Source of the DNA: Pigmentiphaga sp. NML030171
Lineage (GTDB): Bacteria; Pseudomonadota; Gammaproteobacteria; Burkholderiales; Burkholderiaceae_B
Direction of reading: 5' to 3'
Assembly: GCF_002188635.1 (NCBI RefSeq)
Contig: NZ_NINX01000055.1
Span: 1-64,000 of the forward strand
DNA: 64,000 nucleotides
Of this stretch, positions 20,085 through 44,828 are shown piece by piece. Under the pieces are notes generated by a model. The model was given only the letters and a program-made list of their open reading frames with translations. It did no database searches and was not told the origin of the DNA. The translations under genes and the position numbers were made by a program. Every line of letters begins with the position of its first letter. Positions within the stretch are counted from its first letter, which is position 1.

Positions 20085-21332
20085 CTACCCACCATAGACC
20101 GGGAACTTCGCGGTCAGGGCGTTGACGCGCTCGCGCACGGCCGCGATGTTGGCCTCGTCGCGCGGGTTGTCCAGCACGTCGGCGATGAGGTTGGCGGTCA
20201 GGCGGGCCTCGTCTTCCTTGAAGCCGCGCGTGGTCATGGCCGGCGAACCGACACGCACGCCGCTGGTGACGAAGGGCTTTTCCGGATCGTTCGGGATCGC
20301 GTTCTTGTTGACCGTGATGTGAGCCTGGCCCAGCGCCAGTTCGGCGTCCTTGCCCGTGATGCCCTTGGCGCGCAGGTCCACCAGCATGACGTGGCTCTCG
20401 GTGCGTCCGGACACGATGCGCAGGCCGCGTTCGACCAGCGTCTCCGCCATCACCTTGGCGTTGGCCACGACCTGGGCGGCATACTGCTTGAACGAGGGAT
20501 CCAGCGCTTCCTTGAAGGCCACGGCCTTGGCGGCGATGACGTGCTCCAGCGGACCGCCCTGGATGCCCGGGAAGATGGCGGAGTTGACGGCCTTCTCGAA
20601 CTCGGCCTTGCACATGATCAGTCCGCCGCGCGGGCCGCGCAGCGACTTGTGCGTGGTCGAGGTGACGAAATCGGCGTGCGGGACCGGGTTGGGATAGGCG
20701 CCGCCGGCGACCAGGCCGGCGTAGTGGGCGATGTCCACCATGAACAGCGCGCCGTTGGCCTTGGCGATCTCGGCGAAACGGGCGAAGTCGATGCGCAGCG
20801 CATAGGCCGAGGCACCGGCCACGATCAGCTTGGGCTTGTGCTCGGCGGCCAGGCGCGCGACCTGGTCGTAATCGATTTCTTCCTGGGCGTTCAGGCCGTA
20901 GGACAGGAAGTTGTAGAGCTTGCCCGAGGCATTGACCGGCGAGCCGTGCGTCAGGTGGCCGCCCTCGGCCAGGCTCATGCCCAGCACGGTGTCGCCGGGC
21001 TTGAGCACGGCCATGTACACGCCCTGGTTGGCCTGCGAGCCCGAGTTGGGCTGCACGTTCACGGCGTCGGCGCCGAAGATCTGCTTGGCGCGGTCGATGG
21101 CCAGCTGCTCGACGATGTCCACGAACTCGCAGCCGCCGTAATAGCGCTTGCCGGGATAGCCTTCGGCGTACTTGTTGGTGAGCTGCGTGCCCTGCGCCTG
21201 CATGACGGCCGGGCTGGCGTAGTTTTCCGAGGCGATCAGCTCGATGTGCTGTTCCTGGCGCTGGTTTTCCAGCTCGATGGCGGACCAGAGCTCGGGATCG
21301 GCCTGGGCGATGGTGCGGTTGCGGTCGAACAT
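20085..21332 (-). CDS. glyA: Serine hydroxymethyltransferase
   Basis: GlyA is the PLP enzyme that interconverts serine and glycine and feeds one-carbon units to folate. The 415-residue protein is full length and shows [55 protein letters not shown], the PLP lysine in [16 protein letters not shown], and [17 protein letters not shown]. The ATG at 21332 is preceded by GGAAGGAAACC. Its leader carries a ZTP riboswitch, so expression should rise when ZTP/ZMP accumulates, the sign of one-carbon shortage. Confidence 0.98.
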
Positions 21333-21334
21333 GA

Positions 21335-21498
21335 CGGTTTCCTTCCTGTGCAGAACGGGGGGCCAACCGACGGATTCAACGCGACGGCCAGCCGATATGA
21401 CGGAAACCGCGCCACATCGCCCTGCTGCGCCTGCGCGGCAGGGCAGCCGAAACGAAAGACGGCGTGACGCGATCTACGAATCTGCCTAACGGCTGCCC
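21335..21498 (-). promoter_or_regulatory. Candidate expression platform of the ZTP riboswitch
   Basis: Several competing helices can be drawn downstream of the aptamer. GGGCAGCCG-type pairing joins 21490-21498 with 21441-21449 over nine pairs and consumes the aptamer's CCTGGGCAG. A second helix, GCCCTGC with GCAGGGC (21419-21425 with 21438-21444), competes with the first. CGGTTTCC (21402-21409) can pair with GGAAACCG (21335-21342), next to the glyA ribosome binding site. No U-tract is seen, so control is probably translational. Confidence 0.5.
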
Positions 21499-21619
21499 AG
21501 GCGAACGGCGGGCGGCGCGGCCACGCCCCGGACGGGACGAACCTAACCGCCGAAACCCTGCGCTTCCTTGTGGTAAACCCACCTAGGCCCCGAAGCCTAG
21601 AGTCGCCAGTCACGCAGGG
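21493..21619 (-). ncRNA. ZTP (pfl) riboswitch in the glyA leader
   Basis: Reading the minus strand, a P1 helix (CCCTGC / GCAGGG) encloses the conserved CGTGACTGGCGA, a P2 stem with a TTCG loop, and TGGGTTTACCACAAGGAAGCG. About 40 bases later comes the conserved 3' subdomain CGCCTGGGCAG. All three blocks match the known ZTP/pfl aptamer, which is found before glyA in other proteobacteria. A plausible -10 (TAAACT, 21639-21634) lies just upstream, so transcription should begin near the aptamer. Confidence 0.93.
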
Positions 21620-21740
21620 TGAAGGCAAGAATTAGTTTACCCCAGTCTCGAGCGCCCTGGCGCACGTCTGCGCGGCGGCGCAACATGGGCTATCGTGGCA
21701 CCCTGACCGCGACCGACAACCGACTTCCAGGACTCTCCCG

Positions 21741-39623: not shown

Positions 39624-39822
39624 AGGCCATGCGCCGACCCACCCGCGGCCGCCATCCGGCCCCCGGTCCAGCTGTAACGATATCCGACGCCACCGCCCGC
39701 TTCCCCTGTGATGCCACGGCCGCGCTTCATGCTTTGATAAACATCCATACATAAGAAAAGATCCCGGCGCCACTTAAGGGCAGACACTAGGCCGTTCACA
39801 GTGCCTTATGGAGAACCGTCCG

Positions 39823-40251
39823 ATGAAAACGATCAAGACGATGCTGGCCGCCGGAGCCGTGGCCGCGGGACTGGCCGCCTGCGCGGCGCCCCAGCGCGAC
39901 ACGTCCACCCAGCAGGCCTCGACGATATCGCCGCAGTCGGTTACCGACGATCAGCTGCAGCGCTTCGCCAACGCCGCCAGGAAAGTGAACGCGGTGTCGC
40001 CCGGAACCGGGGCGGCCGCCGCCACCACCGCGGGCGGCGAGCCCACCAACGCCACTTTCGACGAAGCCAATGGCCGCAAGGCGCAGGCTGTCTGGAGCGA
40101 AGGGCTGACCGTGCGGGAGTTCAACGCCATCAACGCAGCCGTCCAGCAGGATCCTGCCCTGATGCAGCGGTACGGCGCGCTGATGCAAGGCGCCGGCTCG
40201 ACCGGCGGCAGCTATGGCGGCTCCACGGGTGGCGGCACGATGATGCGCTGA
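39823..40251 (+). CDS. Small lipoprotein with DUF4168-like domain
   Basis: The product of 142 residues from the ATG at 39823 (behind GGAGAACC) has a lipoprotein signal peptide ending in the lipobox LAAC, so Cys is predicted to be acylated. The mature part contains VTDDQLQRFANAARKVNAV and GLTVREFNAINAAVQQDPALM, which resembles the two helices of DUF4168 proteins. The C-terminus is a low-complexity Gly/Ser tract with GGS repeats ending in MMR. Function unknown. It stands alone; the sRNA gene downstream is convergent. Confidence 0.75.
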   Translation: MKTIKTMLAAGAVAAGLAACAAPQRDTSTQQASTISPQSVTDDQLQRFANAARKVNAVSPGTGAAAATTAGGEPTNATFDEANGRKAQAVWSEGLTVREFNAINAAVQQDPALMQRYGALMQGAGSTGGSYGGSTGGGTMMR

Positions 40252-40264
40252 TCCGAAAACAGGC

Positions 40265-40407
40265 AAAAAAAAGCCCGAAGCCTTGCGGCTTCGGGCTAAT
40301 CCACCAAAGGAGGAGGGTGGAGGAGACACCGGTAGATGGGCTTTGCGGGGCTATCCGACGATGCCGAGGGGCCCGGGGCCGTGTCGACATACAAAGCGTC
40401 ATCCGTT
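40265..40407 (-). ncRNA. Putative trans-acting sRNA, copy 1, with anti-Shine-Dalgarno loop
   Basis: Read on the minus strand, the predicted transcript is about 143 bases. It starts close to AACGGATGACGC and ends in an intrinsic terminator: AGCCCGAAGCC and GGCTTCGGGCT pair perfectly over eleven bases around a four-base loop, followed by eight T. Upstream of the terminator a six-base stem (TCCACC/GGTGGA, 40300-40321) presents the loop CTCCTCCTTT, which contains the same CCTCCTTT as the 16S rRNA 3' end. Such loops commonly block ribosome binding sites of target mRNAs. The 5' half is GC-rich with further hairpins. An ORF that reads through the terminator is not credible. Confidence 0.8.
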
Positions 40408-40413
40408 GAACCC

Positions 40414-40442
40414 ATTATAGGGAAGCGGTTTGTGCGATGCAA
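40414..40442 (-). promoter_or_regulatory. Promoter of sRNA copy 1
   Basis: On the minus strand TTGCAT (40442-40437) and a perfect TATAAT (40419-40414) are separated by exactly 17 bases, a strong sigma70 promoter. The predicted start is near 40407. Confidence 0.85.
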
Positions 40443-40445
40443 GAA

Positions 40446-40638
40446 GTTTTTTTTGACCTGTTCACCACCATGCGGTATCAATTTTCAACAGGCAAAATTC
40501 TTTTTATATCAACAAGTTAAGTCCTTTTTTAGCGCGGTTCTGCGCGCCCCTCCCCATCCTTTTCAGGCGACTCAGGCTTGCTCAGCCATGGATGCGGATG
40601 TGCTGTCGACATATTTTGATGCGAAGCAGCATGGTACG
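40446..40638. other. AT-rich spacer between the sRNA copies
   Basis: This stretch holds poly-T runs (eight T near 40446, six near 40527) and is clearly less GC-rich than its surroundings. I see no gene, terminator stem or tRNA in it. Confidence 0.6.
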
Positions 40639-40641
40639 GGC

Positions 40642-40784
40642 AAAAAAAAGCCCGAAGCCTTGCGGCTTCGGGCTAATCCACCAAAGGAGGAGGGTGGAGG
40701 AGACACCGGTAGATGGGCTTTGCGGGGCAATCCGACGATGCCGAGGGGCCCGAGGCCGTGTCGACATACAAAGCGTCATCCGTT
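40642..40784 (-). ncRNA. Putative trans-acting sRNA, copy 2
   Basis: This is the sibling of the RNA at 40265-40407. The terminator (stem 40649-40659 with 40664-40674, then eight T), the CTCCTCCTTT loop and nearly the whole transcribed sequence are preserved; changes seen by eye include GGCAATCC for GGCTATCC and GCCCGAGG for GCCCGGGG. Both copies should be made independently because each has its own promoter. Confidence 0.8.
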
Positions 40785-40790
40785 GGGTTA

Positions 40791-40819
40791 ATTATAGAGA
40801 GATCTTTTGTGCGATGCAA
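40791..40819 (-). promoter_or_regulatory. Promoter of sRNA copy 2
   Basis: TTGCAT (40819-40814) and TATAAT (40796-40791) with a 17-base spacer on the minus strand. Hexamers are identical to copy one although much of the spacer differs, which suggests they are under selection. Confidence 0.85.
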
Positions 40820-40916
40820 GAACCCCTAAGGGTTGTTGCCTACGTACAAAAACCGATGTGGATGCCGATAAAAAACCCCTTACCAATCAATAAGTTATAC
40901 ACAAACCATCCCACCA

Positions 40917-41096: not shown

Positions 41097-41522
41097 ATGG
41101 AATGCATCGTAAGCTGGGGCGGCCCCCAGGGCATGCTGTTCACCGCCCAGACGGGCAGCGGACACGTCGCCGTCATGGATGGCGCGCCGGACGGCGGGGG
41201 CAACAACCTCGCGCCCCGGCCGATGGAACTGGTGCTGGCCGGAACAGGCGGCTGCACGGCCTACGACGTCGTCCTGATTCTGAAGCGCGGCCGCCATGCC
41301 GTGCGCGGCTGCACGGTGGCGCTCAAGGCCGAGCGGGCCGACACCGACCCCAAGGTCTTCACCAAGATCCATTTCGCCTTCACGGTAACGGGCAAGAACC
41401 TTCCGCCCGCGGCGGTCGAGCGTGCAGTGCAGCTTTCCCACGAAAAGTACTGCTCGGCCTCGGCCATGCTCGAAAAGACCGCGGAACTGACCTGGTCGGT
41501 GGAAATCGTCGAAGCCGACTGA
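41097..41522 (+). CDS. OsmC family protein
   Basis: The 141-residue product belongs to the OsmC/YhfA group of thiol peroxidases or related proteins. It shows RPMELVLAGTGGCTAYDVVLILKR and, later, AVQLSHEKYCSASAMLEKTAEL; the two Cys residues (in GGCTAYD and KYCSAS) are in the positions of the family's peroxidatic and resolving cysteines. The ATG follows GAGGAATATC. It is convergent with coq7. Confidence 0.92.
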   Translation: MECIVSWGGPQGMLFTAQTGSGHVAVMDGAPDGGGNNLAPRPMELVLAGTGGCTAYDVVLILKRGRHAVRGCTVALKAERADTDPKVFTKIHFAFTVTGKNLPPAAVERAVQLSHEKYCSASAMLEKTAELTWSVEIVEAD

Positions 41523-41528
41523 AGCGCG

Positions 41529-42215
41529 TCAGAGGTAATACGCGGTGGAGGTCATGAGCCTGGACCCGCACCGCATCGCTGCCCGCACCGGAGCGGGCAG
41601 CTCGACGCCGCCACGCTGCTCCGCCGTCACCCGATGCTGGCGCTCGTCGGCGGCCATCCGTTCGACGATCGCGCGCGAACGCGCATCACTGGCCGGCAGC
41701 GTACCCAGGTGTCCGTCCAGATGGCGCTCCACCTGCCGCTCGGTTTCCGCCATGAAGCCCAGGTTCCAGGCCTCGCCCGCCTTGCCCGCCAGCATGCCCA
41801 GCCCGAAGGCCCCCGCATACCAGAACGGATTCAACAGGCTGGAATGCGAACGCAGCTCGCGCAGGCGGTCGTCCAGCCAGGCCAGGTGATCGGTCTCTTC
41901 GGCCGCCGCGTCCAGGAATACCTGGCGTGTCTCCGGCTTGTCGCAGACCAGCGCCTGGCCCCGGTACAGCGCCTGGGCGCACACCTCCCCCACATGATTG
42001 ACCCGCATCAGGCCGGCCGCGTGCTTGCGCTCGGTTTCCGTCAACGCCGGGCCCGAAGCGTCCCCGGACGTCCCCTCGGCAGCGGCGGACAGGCGTCCCG
42101 CCGGATTCGGCCGCTGCGCCGACACCGACCCCGTCAGCACGCGCACGGCGCGATCCGCCTCGGACAGCACCCGGTCCAGCAGGGAAATACGGCGAAAGGA
42201 TGCGGTTCCCGACAT
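41529..42215 (-). CDS. coq7: 2-polyprenyl-3-methyl-6-methoxy-1,4-benzoquinone monooxygenase
   Basis: Coq7 is a di-iron hydroxylase of ubiquinone synthesis at the inner membrane. The product of 228 residues from the ATG at 42215 has a variable N-terminus, then MRVNHVGEVCAQALYRGQAL, DAAAEETDHLAWLDDRLRELRSHSSLLNPFWY, the membrane-associated GAFGLGMLAGKAGEAWNLGF, VERHLDGHLG and ERMAADERQHRVTA, giving the usual Glu/His iron ligands. It ends six bases from the convergent OsmC-like gene. Confidence 0.95.
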   Translation of the reverse strand: MSGTASFRRISLLDRVLSEADRAVRVLTGSVSAQRPNPAGRLSAAAEGTSGDASGPALTETERKHAAGLMRVNHVGEVCAQALYRGQALVCDKPETRQVFLDAAAEETDHLAWLDDRLRELRSHSSLLNPFWYAGAFGLGMLAGKAGEAWNLGFMAETERQVERHLDGHLGTLPASDARSRAIVERMAADERQHRVTAEQRGGVELPAPVRAAMRCGSRLMTSTAYYL

Positions 42216-42283
42216 TGCGACCTCCGGTCCGGACATGGCCGGACAGCGACATGAACAGATTCCAGTATAGGCAATCCCCGATT

Positions 42284-42301
42284 CGTTGTTCTTGAACAAC
42301 G
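42284..42301. promoter_or_regulatory. Inverted repeat between coq7 and porin 1
   Basis: CGTTGTTC and GAACAACG are exact complements around a two-base centre. It sits in the divergent region, 69 bases from the coq7 start and 118 from the porin start, and looks like a dimer-binding operator. Confidence 0.45.
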
Positions 42302-42418
42302 TCCGGCGCGACGCAACCCCGTTGTCATTTTCGCCTCATGTTGGATCGTCATCCTCTCGTCCGAGCACTTGAGCAACGCCCTCGTGCCACATCACACAAA
42401 TCCATCTGGAGTTCTCAA

Positions 42419-43462
42419 TTGAAAAAGACCCTCATCGCCGCCGCGCTGCTGGCTGGCTTCGCCGGCACCGCGCAAGCCCAGAGCGTGACGCTGTACGGTA
42501 TCGTCGACATGGGATTCATGAACAGCAAGCAGGATGGCCAATCGGCCACCAACGGGCTGGAAAGCGGCATCGCCGGCAGCTCGCGCTTCGGCCTGCGTGG
42601 CGTGGAAGACCTGGGCAACGGCCTGAAGGCCAACTTCCAGCTGGAAAGCGGCTTCAAGGCCGACACGGGCATCCAGAGCGCCAGCGGCCAGTTGTTCGAC
42701 CGCGCCGCCTGGGTCGGTGTGTCGGGCAACTTCGGTGAAATCCGCCTGGGCCGCCAGGACTCCCTGGGCTTCAACTGGTTCCGCGGCGCCATCAACCCCT
42801 TCGGCAACGCCTACTCGCAGGCCCAGAGCAAGACCGTCTTCAACGTCAGCGGCATCGATGACCGCTTCAGCAACAGCGCCTTCTACCTGTCGCCCAAGTT
42901 CAGCGGCTTCCAGGTCGGCGCCGGCTACAGCTTCAACGCCAACGGCAGCGAAACCGCCGGCAACGACGCCGACAACGCCGCCTACTCGCTGGGCCTGCGC
43001 TACCAGAACGGCCCCCTGCTGGCCGTCCTGACGTACGAACAGAAGAACGCGGCCGACCTGGCTCCCGGTGCGGGCGTGGGCGGCTCCGACCTGAAGAACA
43101 TCCAGCTGGGCGCCACCTACGACTTCGGCGTGGCCAAGCTGCACGCCGGTTACGGCCGCCTGCAGAACTCCGGCTACAAGTCGAACGCCGAGAAGGAGAA
43201 CTCGTACCTGCTGGGCGTGACCGTGCCGTTCGGCGCGCACTCCGTGTTCGCCACCTACCAGCGCAACGACAACGCCAACATCAACGCCGGCCGCGCCGAC
43301 AAGGCCATCAATGGCTACGCCATCGGCTACAACTACACGCTGTCCAAGCGCACCATGATCTACGCCCTGTTCAACCAGTACACCGACGTGATCGTCCGCA
43401 CGGACAACAAGGCCCTGGGCGACAAGCGCGAAATCGCCATCGGCCTGCAGCACAAGTTCTAA
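42419..43462 (+). CDS. Outer-membrane porin (Gram-negative OmpC-like), copy 1
   Basis: The 347-residue protein is a betaproteobacterial general porin. A TTG at 42419 (LKKTLIAAALLAGFAGTAQA) is the best start: it gives a textbook signal peptide ending AQA and lies eight bases after TGGAG; an ATG at 42338 would add a long unrelated N-terminus. The mature part begins QSVTLYGIVDMGF and shows SRFGLRGVEDLGNGLKANFQLESGF, WVGVSGNFGEIRLGRQ and repeated beta-strands ending in the terminal Phe (LQHKF) needed for BamA recognition. It is 25 to 30 percent A/T-light like its neighbours. Confidence 0.94.
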   Translation: MKKTLIAAALLAGFAGTAQAQSVTLYGIVDMGFMNSKQDGQSATNGLESGIAGSSRFGLRGVEDLGNGLKANFQLESGFKADTGIQSASGQLFDRAAWVGVSGNFGEIRLGRQDSLGFNWFRGAINPFGNAYSQAQSKTVFNVSGIDDRFSNSAFYLSPKFSGFQVGAGYSFNANGSETAGNDADNAAYSLGLRYQNGPLLAVLTYEQKNAADLAPGAGVGGSDLKNIQLGATYDFGVAKLHAGYGRLQNSGYKSNAEKENSYLLGVTVPFGAHSVFATYQRNDNANINAGRADKAINGYAIGYNYTLSKRTMIYALFNQYTDVIVRTDNKALGDKREIAIGLQHKF

Positions 43463-43474
43463 GCCCGGCTCAGG

Positions 43475-43499
43475 CATGGGCCGGGGCATCCGGCCCATG
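43475..43499. other. Perfect ten-base hairpin after porin 1
   Basis: CATGGGCCGG and CCGGCCCATG flank a five-base loop directly after the porin stop. Only three T follow, so it may protect the 3' end rather than terminate. Confidence 0.55.
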
Positions 43500-43532
43500 T
43501 TTCGAAGTGCTTACTTCAGCAGTGAGTGTTTT

Positions 43533-43566
43533 CCCGTCTTCGGCTTGCCTGGAGACGGGCTTTTTC
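43533..43566 (+). terminator. Intrinsic terminator after porin 1
   Basis: CCCGTCT (43533-43539) and AGACGGG (43553-43559) pair around a 13-base loop, followed by CTTTTTC. It ends the porin 1 transcript. Confidence 0.8.
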
Positions 43567-43591
43567 GTTGGTTTTTTGCGCAAAAACAACG
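43566..43591. other. AT-rich inverted repeat downstream of the porin 1 terminator
   Basis: CGTTG...CAACG arms enclose the perfect palindrome TTTTTGCGCAAAAA (43573-43586). The rest of the gap up to porin 2 (43592-43802) holds no gene; it must contain the porin 2 promoter, but no clear pair of hexamers stood out. Confidence 0.45.
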
Positions 43592-43802
43592 AAAGCCGTA
43601 AGAATAAGTAAAAACCCGGCCTTCATTCGTCTCTCGACTTGGTAGTAACCCGCATTCTTTGCTGCAATATGAACAACTTCCTACCAGGAAGCTCTGGTTT
43701 TCCCGCAGCAAACGGATACCCGACGATGGATCCGCGCATTCCATCCGGCGCCTCGCACCCCCCGTCTGCCGCGACAGCCAGATCAATCATGGAGATGTAC
43801 GA

Positions 43803-44828
43803 ATGAAAAAGACCCTGATCGCTGCCGCCGTTCTGGCCGGCATGGCTGGTACCGCGCAAGCGCAAAGCTCGGTCACCCTGTACGGCATCATGGATATGGG
43901 CTACCTGTATACCAAGACCGAAGGCATGAAGGCGCGCAACGCGCTGGACAGCGGCCTGCAGAGCGATTCCCGCTTCGGCCTGCGTGGCTCGGAAGACCTG
44001 GGCAACGGCCTGAAGGCCAACTTCCTGCTGGAAGCCGGCATCAACGCCGACGACGGCACCACCACCCAGTCCGGCCTGTTCAACCGCCAATCGTGGGTGG
44101 GCCTGTCGTCCAACACGCTGGGTGAAATCCGCCTGGGCCGCCAGTTCATCCTGGGCTCGCAATTCTTCACCAACATCGATCCGTTCGGCACGACCTTCCG
44201 TCAGGCCGGCATGGGCTCGACCTTCATCGCCGCCAACCAGGTCCGCAACAGCAACAGCGTGATGTACTTCACGCCGACCTGGAACGGCCTGCAAGGCGCC
44301 ATCGGCTACAGCTTCAACCGCTCGACCAGCGAAACCCCGGTCGCCGGCACCAACAACCGCGCCATCACCTCGGGCCTGCGCTACGCCAACGGTCCCGTCG
44401 AAGTCGCCCTGACCTACGACCAGGTCGAGCCCTCGACCGGCGGCAACGTCGGCCGTTCGACCCAGTTGGGCGGTACCTATGACTTCGGCGTGGTCAAGCT
44501 GCATGCCGCCATCGCCGACCAGCGCAACGTCGCGGTCAACGTTGGCGACATCCCGGGCTGGAACGGCCGCTTCGCCAAGAAGACCCTGTCGTACATGGTC
44601 GGCGCGTCGGCTCCCGTCGGCCCCGGCTCGCTGTTCGGCTCGTACCAGAAAGCCAAGGACTGGGACATCGAAGGCTTCAGCGTCGGTTACACCTACCCGC
44701 TGTCGCGTCGTACCAACGCCTATGCCTTCTTCAGCAACATGGACAACGTCGGTCACTACGGCAGCGCCGTCACGACCGGCGACAAGACCACCCGCCAGTT
44801 CGGCGTCGGCCTGCGTCACATGTTCTAA
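43803..44828 (+). CDS. Outer-membrane porin, copy 2
   Basis: This 341-residue porin is paralogous to copy one. The ATG at 43803 follows ATGGAGATGTACGA and starts the signal peptide KKTLIAAAVLAGMAGTAQA. Marks are SVTLYGIMDMGYLY, SRFGLRGSEDLGNGLKANFLLEAGI, WVGLSSNTLGEIRLGRQFI and the terminal RHMF. Loops differ strongly from copy one, so pore properties probably differ. It has its own terminator; a second, separately regulated porin is likely. Confidence 0.95.
   Translation: MKKTLIAAAVLAGMAGTAQAQSSVTLYGIMDMGYLYTKTEGMKARNALDSGLQSDSRFGLRGSEDLGNGLKANFLLEAGINADDGTTTQSGLFNRQSWVGLSSNTLGEIRLGRQFILGSQFFTNIDPFGTTFRQAGMGSTFIAANQVRNSNSVMYFTPTWNGLQGAIGYSFNRSTSETPVAGTNNRAITSGLRYANGPVEVALTYDQVEPSTGGNVGRSTQLGGTYDFGVVKLHAAIADQRNVAVNVGDIPGWNGRFAKKTLSYMVGASAPVGPGSLFGSYQKAKDWDIEGFSVGYTYPLSRRTNAYAFFSNMDNVGHYGSAVTTGDKTTRQFGVGLRHMF

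Follow-up and report, generated by a model that had tools for sequence, protein, structure and literature searches.

A tandem pair of RF02278-type small RNA genes in Pigmentiphaga, with bodies kept alike under two separately conserved promoters

The window analysed here, a 64,000-nucleotide stretch of Pigmentiphaga sp. NML030171 (contig NZ_NINX01000055.1, positions 1 to 64,000), carries two tandem small RNA (sRNA) genes that are members of a described sRNA family, RF02278. They are best explained, with a probability of about 0.8, as a pair of S17-type trans-acting sRNAs that have two promoters, each with its own upstream elements, and RNA bodies that evolve in concert. The two genes occupy a direct repeat of 187 nt (40259-40445 and 40636-40822; 93% identity, spacing 377), in which an earlier, sequence-only reading had placed two sibling sRNA genes starting at 40407 and 40784. 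Both genes are confirmed, with matching starts, and both lie on the minus strand:

40642 to 40784, minus strand: sRNA copy A, nearer osmC/coq7; predicted 143-nt transcript from promoter and terminator geometry; RF02278 match of 70 bits at 40643-40705
40265 to 40407, minus strand: sRNA copy B, nearer rplM; predicted 143-nt transcript from promoter and terminator geometry; RF02278 match of 70 bits at 40266-40328
40791 to 40819, minus strand: copy A promoter, TTGCAT-17-TATAAT (-35 at 40814-40819, -10 at 40791-40796)
40414 to 40442, minus strand: copy B promoter, TTGCAT-17-TATAAT (-35 at 40437-40442, -10 at 40414-40419)
40649 to 40674, minus strand: copy A intrinsic terminator stem, 11 pairs
40272 to 40297, minus strand: copy B intrinsic terminator stem, 11 pairs

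The predicted start of each transcript is an A seven bases past the -10 (40784 in copy A and 40407 in copy B), and each gene would be transcribed from its own sigma-70 promoter and end at a strong hairpin. The promoter hexamers with their 17-base spacer, the transcript length of about 143 nt and the perfect 11-base terminator stem were found in both copies as first described; the run of eight T is obtained only when the last base of the stem is included, seven T lying beyond it. The terminator helix of each copy is closed by a GCAA loop. Among orthologues, copy A retains TATAAT in 9/9 cases with a -35 of the form TTGCNN and a spacer of 17 in eight and 18 in one, and copy B retains TATAAT and the 17-base spacer in 9/9 with TTGCAN as its -35. 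A generic scan based on the TTGACA consensus returned no promoters at the sRNA locus, and terminator-like sites there were not clearly above shuffled sequence (3 against a mean of 2.3); the promoter and terminator signals are therefore backed by their conservation rather than by generic scanning. The two transcripts fold more stably than shuffled sequences (z-scores of -3.42 and -3.81 for the 142 nt folded, with 0/200 shuffles equally stable in each case), as does the 63-nt 3' part (z-score -5.91; 0/200).

The pair had not been recognised as belonging to a named family, a view overturned by a covariance search in which each copy scores 70 bits against Rfam RF02278, "Betaproteobacteria toxic small RNA", over the whole model (1-64 of 64), where the gathering score is 50. 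The anti-hemB and NmsRb models and the remaining Rfam families with E <= 10 all fall under their own gathering scores for both copies, NmsRb reaching 43.3 and 43.0 bits where 52 is required. RF02278 was matched in none of 14 control genomes and, at E <= 1e-7, in 186 of the 200 genomes examined from the window's family; nine of the 14 family genomes that lack a match are under 1 Mb and two are under 85% complete. Studied members of RF02278 type include S17 of Bordetella pertussis (PMC11722255, a preprint) and, in the accessible parts of the respective papers, RNAs of Burkholderia cenocepacia (PMC5688073, PMC4603805) and Herbaspirillum (PMC7011215). As two highly similar sRNAs encoded in one genome, the window copies also belong to the general class of sibling sRNAs. 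Their assignment to the named family follows from the full-length RF02278 matches together with the S17 position beside osmC/coq7, which is set by two genes:

41097 to 41522, plus strand: OsmC-family gene (Pfam OsmC, 66.1 bits), adjoining the sRNA in 10/10 fetched genus loci
41529 to 42299, minus strand: coq7 homologue (Pfam COQ7, 144.7 bits), the marker of the S17 locus

In B. pertussis, S17 sits between a glycosyltransferase gene and coq7 (PMC11722255). Of 11 loci fetched from other genera of the family, 10 have coq7 no further than about 400 bp from the sRNA, and at the eleventh (G021) osmC alone was found among the neighbours searched. The window copies share the location beside coq7 expected of an S17 orthologue, with osmC intervening between the sRNAs and coq7 in this genus. 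In all ten fetched Pigmentiphaga loci, the sRNA genes are flanked by osmC/coq7 on one side and rplM on the other, with two copies in nine loci and one in G010; from this position we infer that the pair arose by duplication in place. On the opposite flank, a small DUF4168-domain gene (39808-40330, plus strand) converges on copy B; transcription of this gene might continue antisense to the sRNA, as the shared hairpin is followed on the plus strand by AATCC and not by a T run. Beyond coq7 lie two adjacent porin genes (42338-44828, plus strand; Pfam Porin_4) that are 46% identical and both adjoin coq7 in 9/10 genus loci. Elsewhere in the window, a ZMP/ZTP riboswitch (21488-21623, minus strand; 50.4 bits) is found upstream of a serine hydroxymethyltransferase gene (20085-21332, minus strand; Pfam SHMT), an ordinary arrangement.

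The mode of action of the pair may be read from S17, which has a sigma-A promoter, is cut by RNase E at GU/GU to a stable form of 67 nt, depends on Hfq, is subject to Bvg control, and represses a reporter of a sigma-54 activator by pairing through its Site 1, as established with compensatory mutations (PMC11722255). The corresponding features of the window are:

40696 to 40704, minus strand: copy A Site 1, GUCUCCUCC, a single-stranded pairing site whose equivalent is proven in S17 (PMC11722255)
40319 to 40327, minus strand: copy B Site 1, GUCUCCUCC, a single-stranded pairing site
40677 to 40698, minus strand: copy A anti-Shine-Dalgarno (anti-SD) hairpin, TCCACC-CTCCTCCTTT-GGTGGA, its loop being Site 2
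40300 to 40321, minus strand: copy B anti-SD hairpin, TCCACC-CTCCTCCTTT-GGTGGA, its loop being Site 2
40642 to 40704, minus strand: predicted processed 63-nt form of copy A (S17S-like), by analogy to the S17 RNase E site
40265 to 40327, minus strand: predicted processed 63-nt form of copy B (S17S-like), by analogy to the S17 RNase E site

Both window copies possess GUGU at the expected RNase E cut, and their predicted 63-nt products are identical. By analogy, the RNA of about 143 nt is probably processed by RNase E to a stable form of about 63 nt that represses translation through C/U-rich sites pairing with Shine-Dalgarno regions. More specifically, RNase E would cut just before GUCUCCUCC to release a stable, Hfq-bound RNA, whose Site 1 and hairpin loop (Site 2) would pair with the purine-rich Shine-Dalgarno regions of selected mRNAs and thus block ribosome binding. 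The earlier proposal that these are trans-acting translational repressors with anti-SD sequences is, on the same analogy, likely right. Its transcript of about 143 nt agrees with the predicted length, but it is probably the 3' product, of about 63 nt (67 nt in S17), that is active; likewise, the loop on which it based pairing is indeed Site 2, but Site 1, upstream of the hairpin and the best supported site, was omitted.

Conservation of these sites was assessed in 42 fetched loci (19 from the genus and 23 from elsewhere), which were mostly best-scoring matches and are thus biased towards conserved ones. Within this sample, all 42 loci have Site 1 (GTCTCCTCCACC) and the hairpin stem; 38/42 have the loop sequence CCTCCTTT, which is missing from both copies of G001 and G006, and 35/42 have the exact 30-mer spanning Sites 1 and 2. 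The hairpin with its anti-SD loop, noted earlier, is confirmed in both window copies. Among the fetched loci, the window copies both carry the 30-mer without mismatch, as do 22 of the 23 loci outside the genus; for S17S, positions 2-28, which hold its Sites 1 and 2, are reported to be 100% conserved over many Betaproteobacteria (PMC11722255). The leader forms a fold of its own, with four pair types at one of its pairs, and changes on both sides were seen in 2 of 34 consensus pairs; covariation lends modest to little support, as the hairpin stem pairs never vary in the genus. The loop had also been matched to the 3' tail of 16S rRNA. This tail, TGGATCACCTCCTTT, was found in two of the four genus genomes examined (G007 and G010), but neither in G009 nor in the window's own draft genome, in which a longer pattern was likewise unmatched.

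A candidate target was sought among 11 strong PF00158 matches of the window's genome, considered in the frame of the match (15 in total, four weak ones being left out). One of these, P0001 (L186, on contig C2 of G000), contains response regulator, sigma-54 activator and Fis domains and has a ribosome site, TGGAGGAGAC, just ahead of its ATG that complements 10 nt of the Site 1 region; its predicted duplex with Site 1 has an energy of -20.8 kcal/mol. In the other ten sigma-54 activators, GGAGGAGAC precedes none of the in-frame starts, and the strongest duplex is -16.7. The best matches of P0001 in ten genus genomes are 60-100% identical, and the 10-mer is kept in six of these relatives, which are mutually close (90-100% protein identity), and is absent from G001, G006, G009 and G010. 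P0001 is offered as a lead only, and as no more than a possible orthologue of the S17 target BP2158. Within the window there are no perfect Site 1 targets, GGAGGAGAC occurring only as the complement of the two sRNAs.

The tandem pair is present in 9 of 11 genus genomes, in keeping with the earlier suggestion that both copies are maintained; G010 has one copy and G009 none. In G009 osmC was not found either, so that the absence there is not proof of sRNA loss. Across the wider family, at least two RF02278 matches occur in 13 of 200 genomes, and no same-contig pair was seen outside the genus, the copies of G022, G023, G068 and G192 being on different contigs, in a survey whose strict filters and cut of 1e-7 could miss weak neighbouring matches. 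A genome from another family, G042, has nine RF02278 matches; one pair is separated by 378 bases, and another match lies 3.6 kb from that pair. Tandem copies are therefore not unique to the genus.

Copies A and B were compared part by part in the nine two-copy genomes. Upstream of the -35, mean identity is 0.34 between the two copies of one genome, 0.53 among A copies and 0.62 among B copies; for the RNA body, the corresponding values are 0.94, 0.89 and 0.90. A tree built on the promoter and the 75 bp upstream of it resolves A and B as one clade apiece (100/100), with 0/500 shuffles as low. The body tree does not separate the copies (6 label changes; 289/500 shuffles as low) and unites both copies of G001 and G006 at 100/99; the bootstrap had settled for neither tree, and of the 15 inner branches in the body tree 9 are weak. 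In the body, twelve columns set the G001/G006 clade apart from the rest in both copies, and none divides all A from all B, a second count from which G004 was left out. As body identity in the six closest genomes is 0.963 within genomes and 0.964 among A orthologues (0.955 among B), the signal of concerted evolution comes mostly from a single, deeper split.

The split between promoter and body is suggestive of an RNA evolving in concert while its two promoters stay distinct and conserved. Its simplest reading is one old duplication, after which the promoters would have been inherited separately and the bodies homogenised by gene conversion, itself a postulated step, and selection. The sequence-only reading had remarked that the promoter hexamers are kept and the spacer has diverged, which holds but understates the case, given that each copy's own upstream sequence is conserved among its orthologues in nine genomes. 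Two elements may be discerned in these upstream regions:

40821 to 40834, minus strand: copy A upstream element, AACCCTTAGGGGTT, an imperfect palindrome touching the -35, with its centre near -43; a putative regulator site
40464 to 40476, minus strand: copy B upstream element, ACCGCATGGTGGT, an imperfect palindrome with its centre near -63; a putative activator site

In the stretch examined, AACCCT occurs upstream of 9/9 A copies and 0/9 B copies, and CRYATKGTGG, about 20 bases upstream of the -35, in 9/9 B copies and 0/9 A copies; these counts describe and do not test, as the motifs were read from the same sequences. Among 24 single-locus rows, two of which have misplaced promoters, a stricter A pattern (present in 7/9 A copies) is found in one and the B pattern in none. 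A search with a loose form of the B pattern gave 22-48 sites per genome and indicated no regulator. As the upstream element of each promoter is its own and has been conserved, the pair probably answers to two signals with a single RNA product. A fuller scenario, to which we give about even odds, is that a tandem duplication arose early in the genus, gene conversion keeps the anti-SD RNAs alike and selection keeps two operators, such that two environmental signals would converge on one repressor RNA.

It is also possible, if on the unlikely side, that the duplicate only raises gene dosage, the copies being redundant, their promoters having drifted and purifying selection alone keeping the bodies alike. 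The identity of the predicted 63-nt products in the window accords with this, and body identity within the six closest genomes does not tell paralogues from orthologues. Against it, upstream sequences differ by copy and yet are conserved within each orthologous group across nine genomes, and purifying selection alone is not an easy source of 12 clade-shared body columns of which none is copy-specific. A switch in which RNase E frees Site 1 by removing a 5' leader that masks it would fit the weaker repression by S17L than by S17S (PMC11722255) and the predicted pairing of the 5' end with Site 1 in part of the ensemble of the window copies (0.46 and 0.45). As a conserved device it is rather improbable, such pairing being predicted at 0.44-0.47 in 5/18 genus copies but at no more than 0.06 in the other 13, with a maximum of 0.23 among 23 other rows.

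A general inhibitor of translation, or toxic RNA, whose anti-SD sequences mimic the 16S tail, pair broadly with ribosome sites and slow growth, is suggested by the family name, by the presence of CCTCCTTT in 38/42 loci, by members reported as toxic when cloned in Escherichia coli in the accessible text of PMC4603805, and by a statement that growth of E. coli or B. cenocepacia is suppressed on overexpression (PMC11722255). Nevertheless, overexpression of S17S left exponential growth of E. coli unimpaired, with modest impairment on entry into stationary phase, and about 91 genes, rather than all, were raised when S17 was deleted (PMC11722255), making so broad an action improbable. That the RNA encodes a small protein, a 32-residue ORF having been noted in S17, is highly improbable: an ATG-led open frame does run through the body in 16/18 genus copies, but the ATG is missing in two (G001A and G006A), the frame is shifted relative to the majority in three (G004B, G006B and G001B), no stop precedes the terminator and the predicted cut removes the start of the ORF.

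The preferred reading, of S17-type siblings with bodies evolving in concert under two promoters, may be set against several known systems. S17 of B. pertussis resembles the window pair in its RF02278-type 3' domain, its TTGCAT followed at 17 bases by a -10, its GU/GU cut site and its place beside coq7; it differs in being a single gene, flanked by coq7 and the glycosyltransferase gene, whose 190-nt RNA is cut to 67 nt (PMC11722255), whereas the window has two genes in tandem, each about 143 nt long, and osmC separates them from coq7. The double-hairpin sRNAs ncS03, ncS05, ncS27, ncS62 and bdhR1 of B. cenocepacia likewise belong to RF02278 according to the available portion of PMC4603805, but the copies in that species are dispersed and, in the portion of PMC5688073 available, are stated not to occur in tandem. 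Neisseria NmsRA/NmsRB (NgncR_162/163), as described in the accessible section of PMC5362039, are, like the window pair, tandem siblings with two anti-SD stretches, and act directly on mRNAs of metabolic enzymes, but they are 70% identical and have an Lrp gene as neighbour. The resemblance to these siblings, which had been pointed out from the letters, was rightly perceived, as seen in the NmsRb scores given above, though these lie under the gathering value. The OmrA/OmrB RNAs of E. coli are unrelated to the RF02278 pair. They too are tandem siblings with differing promoter regions and expression, as far as the available text of PMC4211561 describes them, but are near-identical only at their two ends, unlike the window copies, which are alike over the whole body.

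The family and its mode of action were thus already known, and what is newer is the tandem pair itself, genus-wide, with bodies that are alike and promoters that are separate. Concerted evolution restricted to the transcribed part of sibling sRNA genes was not met among the best matches listed in a search of open-licence literature, which is weak evidence. How and why sibling sRNAs are kept is an open question, according to the accessible part of a review (PMC4211561), for which this genus constitutes a natural experiment, the product having been held alike and the promoters having diverged. As the family has a worked-out mechanism, the window pair is testable at once, and under the best explanation mRNAs carrying GGAGGAGA-type ribosome sites would be the expected class of targets.
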